The position numbers and the translations under genes were made by a program. A DNA stretch of 32,688 bases from an uncultured Pseudomonadota bacterium (GTDB lineage Bacteria > Bdellovibrionota_B > Oligoflexia > Oligoflexales > CAIYRB01), in the NCBI GenBank assembly GCA_903915625.1, contig CAIWTN010000158.1, forward strand, positions 1 to 32,688. Reading direction: 5' to 3'. Positions 21,072 to 23,952 of the stretch are shown piece by piece. Position 1 is the first letter of the stretch, and every line of letters begins with the position of its first letter. The notes under the pieces are model-generated. The model searched no databases and had not been told where the DNA came from. It was given only the letters and a program-made list of their open reading frames with translations.

Positions 21072-22037
21072 TCACGCCTGCATATTTTTTAGAATGTCAT
21101 CAAACTCATGTAAAGTTTTTAGGTACCGTATCTTATGACTTAGTTTAGCGCCATTTAAGTCGATGATAGGACCGCCGACCCATATCTCGCAGAATGTTGG
21201 TAATTTTTTATCAAGATCTAGTAGGTATGCTTGTTCACTCACCGGTAAAGTTCCGGGTGGTAAAGCATTTAATCCGACGACCACATACTTGGATTTGAAT
21301 GCCAATACCGCCTCGGCAAGTGCTACTACTGGCATATTGGGGCCTAGGAAATAATTCGTAATGCCCCTCAGAGAGCAAAGTACGCTTGCAATCAGAATAC
21401 CAATCTCATGGAAGTTTCCTTCCATAGTGGTGACAGCAAAATTTAATTCTTCATCATTTTTATCGGATATGCGTCGAGGAATCTCTAGCATCATAATAGA
21501 CAGATGAGCTCTTACGATAGCGCTGAGAGCATGTTCGTGACCAATAGTGGTGCGGCCCGAAAGAGTCATCCAGCCGACTGATTCCATAAGCGGTGATATT
21601 AGATTAAGGACAAATGAGCGCGCGCCCATTATGTAGCGTGATTCCGTCAGGGTGGATTGAATCGTTGTTAAGTCGTAGCGCAAAAGTGCCTCTTGGATTT
21701 TGTCCAATTGACTCTGGACTTGCGCCACCTCTGGATTACTTAGTGATTGCTGTTTGGTTCTGGGGCTGCTGGCCTGATCTAATTGCAGATTTTCTGCTAG
21801 CAGCTGCGCGAGGTCGAGGTCTGGAAGTTTGGCGATGCGGCCGATAGCAAAACCGCGTTCAACTAATGCGGCTATGTTGCGCAATCTTTCAACATCGAGG
21901 CGCGAATAGACGCGTCTTCCATTTTCACCGCGTTTCGGCGTGACGGCTCCGTAGCGGCGCTCCCAAGCTCGCAAAGTGTGCTCATTCAGCCCGGTGAGCC
22001 TAGTCATGGCTTTTACGCTAAAACTGTCTTCCGACAT
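21072..22037 (-). CDS. MerR-family regulator with cobalamin-binding domain (CarH/LitR-like)
   Basis: The protein has a MerR-type winged helix at residues 5-73 (SVKAMTRLTGLNEHTLRAWE, then RRVYSRLDVERL). A helical B12-cap domain follows (about 105-190), then a B12-binding Rossmann domain (about 197-318). The cap carries the Trp and Glu-His pair of CarH-type light sensors (Trp156; Glu168-His169), but two residues further apart than the usual W-x9-EH. The Rossmann part has NFHEIG, matching the lower-ligand motif with His210, then VVVGLNALPPG and WVGGPII. It may sense adenosylcobalamin and light. I take ATG 22037, just after GGAG (spacing three). A GTG at 22046 would add three residues. It is divergent from the pseudo-metzincin lipoprotein gene. 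Confidence 0.88.
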   Translation of the reverse strand: MSEDSFSVKAMTRLTGLNEHTLRAWERRYGAVTPKRGENGRRVYSRLDVERLRNIAALVERGFAIGRIAKLPDLDLAQLLAENLQLDQASSPRTKQQSLSNPEVAQVQSQLDKIQEALLRYDLTTIQSTLTESRYIMGARSFVLNLISPLMESVGWMTLSGRTTIGHEHALSAIVRAHLSIMMLEIPRRISDKNDEELNFAVTTMEGNFHEIGILIASVLCSLRGITNYFLGPNMPVVALAEAVLAFKSKYVVVGLNALPPGTLPVSEQAYLLDLDKKLPTFCEIWVGGPIIDLNGAKLSHKIRYLKTLHEFDDILKNMQA

Positions 22038-22164
22038 AAGCTCCACAAAAAACTTTAAAGGTTAGGTGGGACCCTCGAATGTCACTGCGCTAAAAACCAG
22101 CGCCACCATAACATAATACAAAGCTTGCTCCCAGAGATCCACCAAGCCAAATCGGATTAAGTTC

Positions 22165-22335: not shown

Positions 22336-23952
22336 ATGTTTCACGATTGGGCAAAAATTTCGCGCGGCACTGTCGTTATGGCGACAGTGACTGCTCTGAC
22401 TGGCTGCGGCGGTCTCGTCCGTAAAGGCCAGACAGGCAAAGGCGCTGGCAACGAGGTTACTACGGCGCCACCGCGCGCTTATTACGATCAGTTGTTCGCT
22501 ACAAAGTTAGCTTTACTCGATGATAGTGCGACTGCTGCATCAGCACCCGCCACTTCATCAGCACCAGCGACTGATGTACCAGCGACAACTGTGTCGGGTT
22601 CAACAGCACCCGATGCAGCTCAACCAGCAGCGTCAACCACAACTCCGACCACTGCCTCAGCGCCATCGCTAGGCAAGGCCGAAGTCATGTGGCTGAACTT
22701 TGGTGGTGCAACTGTCGAGCGTGGGTACTTAAAAGGTCAGTCCTTCCTGGTATGCTCTGAAAAAGCAACGATCGCGGCTTCGGCAGCCTTGACCAGTGCT
22801 AGCCAAGAGGAAATCGTTAAAAACGTCCAGGGTTTCTACACTGCCGCAGGAGCCAACCTGACAGTCACCGGCACGAAGCCGGTTAGCGGTGACTATACCA
22901 CCGTGATTGTCGGCGGCTCGCTGACTGATCTAGGGTGCAGTGATGCAGGTGAGTTTGGCGCGGCGCCGCTTGATATCGGCAACGCTAACCATAACGACAT
23001 TGCTTTTGTTTTCGCTGCTAGTGGAATTAGCGACAAACAACTAGCTGTCAACATCGCGCATGTATCTGCTCATACATACGGCTTAGGAAATGTTAGCGAT
23101 ACTACTGACATCATGGCCGAGAGTCCTTTGGACACCGCTGTCGGCTTCGCTGTCGGCAAACTTGTGGCTACCGGTGCTGAGCAAAATAGCCCAGCACTTC
23201 TCGCAGAAGCTACCGGTGTAGCAGTTTCGTCACGTGATGGTTCTGGCAGCGCTGACGCAACTAGTTCAGGCAGCAGCGGTACCGCTGCTCCTGCTACAGA
23301 TGCGTCATCAACAGTACCTGCAACGCCAGCCCCTGTGGTTCCGGCTAAGCGCGGCGAACTATTGGTCGAGGAGCTTATTTCATTCTTGCCACGCAACCCG
23401 ACTGCTAGCAGCCAAATCATTCCGCTGCTTAAGGCTTTATTGCCAGTAGCTGCGAAGCTCGACCCTGCAGCGGTAGGCGAGTTGGTTAAGGCTTCTGGTT
23501 TGGGCGGTGGTGCAGGTTCAACCACGACCTCCACGACGACGACTAGGAGTGATGGCACCACGGTTACCTCTACCACCACGATCAACGTGAACGTCAACAT
23601 TAACATCAGCAATGTCTGGAATGGTGGGAGCGGTAAATGGAGCCAAGAAGGTAACGATGCCAAGAAGGAACAGCCGAAAATTTGTTTAACGGGTGACCGT
23701 TGTGCAGACGCGACAGTCAAGCCATTGCCGCCAGTAGCAGCAGTACCGGCCGAAAATACCGTTGCTAGCACGCCAGAGAAATCTGCGTCCGAACCACCAG
23801 CGAATCCAGCAGAAACAGCGAAAGTGATCAACAGCGTTCAGCCCATCGTTAATATCATCAATATTAACTTCAACCATTATGAGGGAGCAAAGCTACGTCC
23901 GATGATGAAGATGGGATGTCTGCAGAAATACTTGGCCGCTCGCGGCAAGTAA
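22336..23952 (+). CDS. Lipoprotein with degenerate metzincin (metalloprotease-like) domain
   Basis: The 538-residue protein has a signal peptide with lipobox ALTGC (Cys24). An Ala/Thr/Pro-rich linker (about 65-112) leads to a domain (113-265) resembling myxobacterial zinc metalloprotease-like proteins: VMWLNFGGATVERG, VIVGGSLTDLG and APLDIGNANHNDIAFVF. It ends in HVSAHTYGLGN...DIM, where metzincins have HExxHxxGxxH and a Met-turn. His242, His246, Gly249 and Met260 are kept, but the catalytic Glu is Val243 and the third zinc His is Asn252, so protease activity is unlikely. A second low-complexity linker and a helical segment (338-390) lead to a Thr-rich tract and two alternating Asn/Val-Ile strands. 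ATG 22336 lies eight bases after GGAGGA (22322-22327); an ATG at 22330 is too close. Confidence 0.82.
   Translation: MFHDWAKISRGTVVMATVTALTGCGGLVRKGQTGKGAGNEVTTAPPRAYYDQLFATKLALLDDSATAASAPATSSAPATDVPATTVSGSTAPDAAQPAASTTTPTTASAPSLGKAEVMWLNFGGATVERGYLKGQSFLVCSEKATIAASAALTSASQEEIVKNVQGFYTAAGANLTVTGTKPVSGDYTTVIVGGSLTDLGCSDAGEFGAAPLDIGNANHNDIAFVFAASGISDKQLAVNIAHVSAHTYGLGNVSDTTDIMAESPLDTAVGFAVGKLVATGAEQNSPALLAEATGVAVSSRDGSGSADATSSGSSGTAAPATDASSTVPATPAPVVPAKRGELLVEELISFLPRNPTASSQIIPLLKALLPVAAKLDPAAVGELVKASGLGGGAGSTTTSTTTTRSDGTTVTSTTTINVNVNINISNVWNGGSGKWSQEGNDAKKEQPKICLTGDRCADATVKPLPPVAAVPAENTVASTPEKSASEPPANPAETAKVINSVQPIVNIININFNHYEGAKLRPMMKMGCLQKYLAARGK

Follow-up and report, generated by a model that had tools for sequence, protein, structure and literature searches.

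Can a protein that carries the signatures of a secreted metzincin, and has lost residues on which metzincin catalysis depends, still serve the bacterium that makes it, and if so, in what way? This question is raised by one gene in the window, by which we mean the whole stretch of DNA that was analyzed, 32,688 nucleotides of contig CAIWTN010000158.1. In metzincins, a Glu acts as the general base, and three His residues hold the zinc. The preliminary description of this gene held that both the catalytic Glu and the third zinc His have been lost from its product, and this is confirmed here: the protein reads HVSAHTYGLGN...DIM where HExxHxxGxxH...M is expected. With Glu243 and His252 gone, peptide hydrolysis is therefore not expected from the metzincin mechanism.

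Results

The gene was confirmed as an open reading frame at 22336–23952 (+), encoding 538 aa. Although the frame can be extended back to 22309, it is the ATG at 22336 that yields the signal peptide MFHDWAKISRGTVVMATVTALTG followed by Cys. The residue numbers given previously, H242, V243, H246, G249, N252, and D258-I259-M260, agree with ours. The lipobox signal peptide and the invariant Cys mark the product as a lipoprotein, with predicted export and lipidation at Cys24, and the other features are collected in Table 1. We take the N-terminal PPxxYYD motif to be reminiscent of propeptide Asp latency (the aspartate switch) in bacterial metzincins. The tail beyond the pseudo-metzincin domain is long and variable; it contains two Ile/Val-Asn segments and ends in a conserved stretch. 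Homology of this stretch, residues 496–538, with the C-terminus of the intact family members was not established by profile–profile alignment. The second alternating Ile/Val-Asn segment of the tail, PIVNIININFNHY at 23842–23880, stands beside INVNVNINISNVW (23581–23619). Like patterns are seen in several congeners, and the two segments may form paired β-strands.

Table 1. Positions in the window of the features of the pseudo-metzincin gene, with the evidence for each. G000 is the window's own genome, and G000–G005 are the six genomes of its genus.
Feature	Position	Strand	Evidence
Lipoprotein signal peptide, residues 1–23, ending LTG before Cys	22336..22404	+	Sequence; lipobox-like site in 18/18 family members
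Cys24, predicted lipidated residue	22405..22407	+	Invariant, 18/18
PPRAYYD, residues 45–51, N-terminal motif common to the family	22468..22488	+	P45, P46, Y49 in 18/18; D51 in 17/18
Ala/Thr/Pro-rich linker, residues 52–112	22489..22671	+	Length varies among species; 83% identity, G000 vs G005
Pseudo-metzincin domain, residues 113–295	22672..23220	+	hhalign vs intact family, probability 100, E 5.6e-61; dN/dS 0.099 at residues 113–275
Cys140, possible disulphide partner of Cys201	22753..22755	+	Invariant, 18/18; pairing presumed
Cys201, possible disulphide partner of Cys140	22936..22938	+	Invariant, 18/18; pairing presumed
Remodelled former active-site segment, residues 231–264	23026..23127	+	8/9 of the clade-specific fixed residues of 113–300
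HVSAHTYGLGN, residues 242–252, replacing HExxHxxGxxH	23059..23091	+	Sequence, family alignment
Asp255, fixed in the altered clade; Asn in 8/10 intact members	23098..23100	+	Alignment
Met-turn motif DIM, residues 258–260	23107..23115	+	Met260 in 6/6 of the genus and 10/10 intact members
Alternating Ile/Val-Asn segment INVNVNINISNVW, residues 416–428, possible β-strand	23581..23619	+	Sequence; residues 401–430 100% identical, G000/G005
Conserved C-terminal segment, residues 496–538	23821..23949	+	100% identical, G000/G005; 62.8%, G000/G003

The window protein alone gave no Pfam family at E ≤ 10. No NCBIfam model came close to its cut-off, and there was no PADLOC match and no relevant PDB sequence for this protein. 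Matches to NCBIfam LenA/LenB (17.5 bits against a cut-off of 300) and to the GABA receptor and mucin in the PDB lie in or near the low-complexity parts and were rejected. Ten members of the family have the full HExxHxxGLxH, and seven of these ten intact members were scanned against Pfam together with three altered proteins. Six of the seven reached the cut-off for PF00413 or PF13582. The gathering cut-off of PF00413 (Matrixin), which the window protein fails, is passed by three of the seven (L007, L008, and L010), and that of PF13582 (Reprolysin_3) by L010, L012, L013, and L015; the intact L018 falls narrowly below both, and the three altered proteins gave no match. Metzincin families are thus matched by intact relatives (Matrixin and Reprolysin_3) and not by the window protein itself.

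Fragilysin and matrix metalloproteases were retrieved from the PDB when a profile built from the ten intact members was used, with a best E = 1.1e-4 for fragilysin. The profile of the six congeners aligned with this intact profile over 237 columns (hhalign, probability 100%, E = 5.6e-61). When it was searched alone against the PDB, it found only a fragilysin-type chain at E 2.1, so that metzincin descent is visible only by way of the intact relatives. Judged from these profile comparisons, the window domain is a metzincin relative by descent, and we infer its metzincin fold from this homology. AlphaFold2, run on the core from just two sequences, the second being L021, gave a pLDDT of 44.6 and a pTM of 0.42, and the helix that it places at the motif was given no weight. 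Foldseek found no match at E ≤ 0.001 with this low-confidence model.

The altered copy is carried by all six genomes of the genus. Listed in the order G000, G005, G003, G004, G001, G002, the position of Glu243 is V, V, V, V, L, L and that of His252 is N, N, T, N, T, T; His242, His246, Gly249, Leu250, and Met260 are constant in all six. The loss is common to all six, and the replacing residues vary between V and L and between N and T. Within alignment region 40–300, 37 columns are invariant in the ten intact members, and 33 of them are unchanged in all six congeners. The four changed columns are Glu243, His252, Ala210, and Gly294, the last two having become Ser in G001 and G002 only. The chance that two named positions would both be found among four of 37 is 6/666, about 0.009 by hand calculation. 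Because 33 of the 37 family-invariant columns are kept, the keeping of His242 and His246 is not special. The retained His242, His246, Gly249, and DIM Met-turn of the preliminary description are all present, but the retention of the His residues stands out in no way from the background.

An intact copy at the same gene, as might be seen in sister species after a recent decay, was found in none of the five congeners, and the second, intact paralogue of G001 (L018) is of different architecture. Outside the genus, the proteins of G009 and G010 are more degraded and illustrate weaker constraint. Between them they have changes at 17 of the 37 invariant columns, and these changes affect one or both of the first two His. 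Both substitutions in the window protein are, on the evidence of the alignment, ancient and common to the whole genus. Metzincin catalysis would have been lost on the stem of the genus or earlier.

Nei–Gojobori dN/dS values were obtained for core residues 113–275. They are 0.099 for G000/G005 and 0.198 for G001/G002; for G003/G004, with 89% amino-acid identity, the synonymous sites are saturated. There is no internal stop in any congener frame, although that of G002 runs off the contig end. The gene is evolving under purifying selection. Among the intact pairs only G020/G026 is unsaturated, with a dN/dS of 0.023, and the altered domain, at 0.10 and 0.20, is thus somewhat less constrained than the intact one. 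Beyond residue 275, identity between G000 and G003 is 40.7–62.8%, compared with 70% for the core. The earlier proposal of selection for a non-proteolytic role is well supported as far as that role is concerned, through the shared old losses and the purifying selection.

Residues were called clade-specific if they are identical in the six altered proteins and absent from the ten intact ones, in 183 alignable columns of residues 113–300. Nine were found, T169, I231, D233, Q235, V238, N239, D255, A261, and P264, eight of them within the 34 columns of 231–264 (hypergeometric P 5e-6). As this segment was chosen after seeing the data, a scan-corrected value is also given, P 1.7e-4, and sampling only the 73 columns that are invariant among the altered proteins gives P 0.002. 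Two intact control clades show no such clustering in the same segment, with 2/28 and 1/6 of their residues there. In the narrower segment 236–262 the clustering is weak (P 0.03), and 242–260 shows no enrichment of clade-specific residues. The signal therefore comes from just before the first His and from around the Met-turn, not from the motif itself. The clustering rests on six species that form three deep pairs, and relief from catalytic constraint together with lineage history could explain part of it. By itself, it is no proof of binding in the cleft, since sites released from the demands of catalysis may be substituted early on and appear fixed afterwards.

Family matches were present in 17 of the 56 genomes searched, the window's own and 55 relatives. 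Profile searches of the order (43 genomes) and of the whole phylum set (58 genomes) gave 18 genomes with a match at E ≤ 0.001. G008, with short partial matches only, was left out of the count, and the family comprises 18 genes in 17 of the 58 phylum genomes, with two in G001. All of the family genomes are in the window's own order, and the profile search gave no family match in the 15 phylum genomes outside it. All 18 members have a lipobox-like site. From viral contigs there were 153 pattern matches, none of which was confirmed as a relative, and a query of plasmids with the intact L007 protein gave no relatives. Among 19 candidate stretches from a search of general genome contigs, one is a family locus. 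This is a lineage-specific family. The fold signatures had been ascribed to myxobacterial proteins, and this attribution is not supported, the family having been found, among the 58 genomes, in the window's order only. The window's phylum, with 58 genomes in one class, also does not fit what we take to be the size of Myxococcota. Its small size and its make-up would tentatively suit class Oligoflexia, whose phylum is split in GTDB (PMC13200544).

In the tree, the altered genes of the genus form one branch with support of 100/100, or 92/98 when the active-site columns are removed. G009 and G010 have long branches in the latter tree, and their joining the genus clade is not rejected there (AU p = 0.535), so that independent losses are not claimed. 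The genes that flank the altered gene in G000, G003, G004, and G005 are a MerR-type regulator and a presumed ClpB-like gene. In G006, G020, G029, and G032, the intact gene lies next to a presumed FAD-linked dehydrogenase (D-lactate type), as does the degraded gene of G009. As this dehydrogenase-like gene stands without an adjoining family member in G000, G001, G003, and G005, the altered gene occupies a different locus. Neighbors in the window include a heavy-metal ATPase, 5-formyltetrahydrofolate cyclo-ligase, a glycosyltransferase, an aminotransferase, and menaquinone genes. The adjoining genes look like housekeeping genes, and no conserved neighbor that would suggest a partner was seen among them.

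The MerR-type regulator, at 21072–22046 (−), has a B12-binding-like C-terminal part, with scores of 21.9 bits for PF02607 (cut-off 23) and 18.3 bits for PF02310 (cut-off 32.1). The His of the B12 motif is seemingly kept (GNFHEIG), and the order of this gene and the pseudo-metzincin gene is preserved in G000, G003, G004, and G005. We presume that it is CarH/LitR-like in make-up.

Several other lipoproteins and metalloproteases were noticed in the relatives. The C-terminus of the intact metzincin L018 (G001:C240, 1216–2814) matches GH134 (PF21087, 21.2 bits, cut-off 27), and L018 is possibly a metzincin fused to a glycan-cutting domain. L062 (G000:C77, 1150–2235) and L061 (G003:C9, 1294–2241) are secreted or lipoprotein-like and have an L018-like C-terminal part without the metzincin part. 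A short Cys-rich module, NGYPYCTNGSNTGGGYGWD...SHSCLV, occurs in L061, L043, and L018, and at 29 places in all, in 6/6 genomes of the genus. It recurs within and between different lipoproteins and looks like a mobile binding module. Adjoining the degraded member of G010, L093 (G010:C85, 2383–3183) is secreted and has HELGHGYGS (VLCHELGHGYGS); it is possibly an unrelated metalloprotease.

Discussion

As read from its sequence and those of its relatives, the window protein is a pseudo-metalloprotease: it descends from an active family, has lost essential catalytic residues, is conserved across species in this state, and is presumably inactive. A disabled form that is kept throughout the genus, with a rebuilt former active site, probably works by binding and not by cutting. 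We suggest, with somewhat better than even confidence, that it is a non-proteolytic envelope lipoprotein in which the old substrate cleft has become a binding surface. The protein would be exported and lipidated at Cys24, as predicted, and would probably reside at the outer membrane, with the pseudo-domain displayed on the low-complexity Ala/Thr/Pro linkers. The positions specific to the fold were kept, and the segment ISDxQLAVNIAH...D255...A261 changed and then became fixed in all six species. At the envelope, the former cleft may now bind a ligand, be it a protein, a peptide, or a glycan.

It is conceivable, although unlikely, that the altered domain is only a structural spacer, a stable folded module whose old cleft has no role, and that the linkers or the C-terminal segment do the work. 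The linkers do look like display stalks, and the C-terminal and Ile/Val-Asn segments are 100% identical in G000 and G005. However, the clade-specific residues gather round the old active site and are not spread evenly over the domain, and divergence between G000 and G003 is faster beyond residue 275 than in the core.

We rate as rather improbable a regulatory or decoy role, in which the protein would act on an active secreted metzincin by binding a live relative's substrate, inhibitor, or partner. Such a role is possible because the window's genome carries further metzincin-type genes with complete motifs. Three of them exceed the PF00413 cut-off, and the motifs read in two of these are HELGHFLGLNH, from a protein that has a lipobox-like site, and HELGHAVGLGH. 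Furthermore, G001 has the live paralogue L018 besides the altered gene, and inactive subunits with roles of this kind are described for some peptidase families in a review of pseudopeptidases (PMC11266112). Against it, neither the window's own genome nor G002–G005 yielded a live member of the family itself, and the housekeeping-like neighborhood holds no conserved gene that points to a partner.

Binding in the cleft might also involve a metal. In this version, which we regard as doubtful, His242, His246, and the newly fixed Asp255 would hold a metal without the catalytic Glu and, together with the remodelled ISDxQLAVNIAH helix, would bind a ligand and not cut it. Even less can be said for a protein that is still an enzyme, with the metal on His242, His246, and a further residue, for instance Asp255, and with some residue other than Glu243 as its base. 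It is true that both His residues and Met260 are invariant and that Asp255 is newly fixed in 6/6, but Val or Leu at the position of the base cannot serve as a base, the His are retained no more than expected (33/37 invariant columns kept), and Asp255 lies three residues past the normal ligand position. We know of no active metzincin without the Glu. A decaying gene, through recent loss of function in a single strain or an assembly error, is barely credible: G009 and G010 have lost more, on long branches outside the genus, but the same losses occur in six separately assembled genomes without an internal stop, and the 33/37 columns kept and the low core dN/dS (0.10 and 0.20) lead us to reject recent decay.

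The window protein may be compared with known metalloproteases and their inactive homologs. It resembles the metzincins of clan MA(M) (PF00413; PF13582/PF13583/PF13688; fragilysin) through the ten relatives from the same order with HExxHxxGLxH and the Met, and differs from them in having neither Glu243 nor His252 and no Pfam model at E ≤ 10. The inactive ADAMs (ADAM2, 7, 11, 18, 22, and others) are described as having lost the base and zinc ligands, kept the Met-turn, and taken on binding roles (PMC11266112). These ADAMs belong to the cell surface of animals; the window protein, by contrast, comes from a different metzincin family, is a bacterial lipoprotein, and keeps the first two His. In CLCA and other zincin families, including bacterial ones, substituted HExxH sites are conserved and non-random, with a role given as unknown, and Gln is the commonest replacement of Glu, according to another article (PMC3650047). 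The window family is a different one, with Val or Leu in place of the Glu. A secreted metzincin of Listeria is reportedly linked to a TIMP-like lipoprotein (PMC8235301); there the lipoprotein is inhibitor-like, and no such pairing was seen around the genes of the window family. A search of the literature, largely of papers outside subscription, found neither a bacterial pseudo-metzincin lipoprotein of this kind nor the family itself.

Conclusions

Inactive metallopeptidase homologs are already recognized, and the window protein adds a new member with unusually clear comparative evidence. The case also carries a warning for annotation, because Pfam yields no match for the gene and metzincin ancestry becomes visible only through the intact relatives. 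The nine fixed residues are a short list of sites at which to study the recruitment of an inactivated active site for another purpose. The protein is a clear-cut natural example of a secreted bacterial metzincin that is presumably without catalysis and yet is kept throughout a genus, and the intact relatives from its own order serve for comparison.
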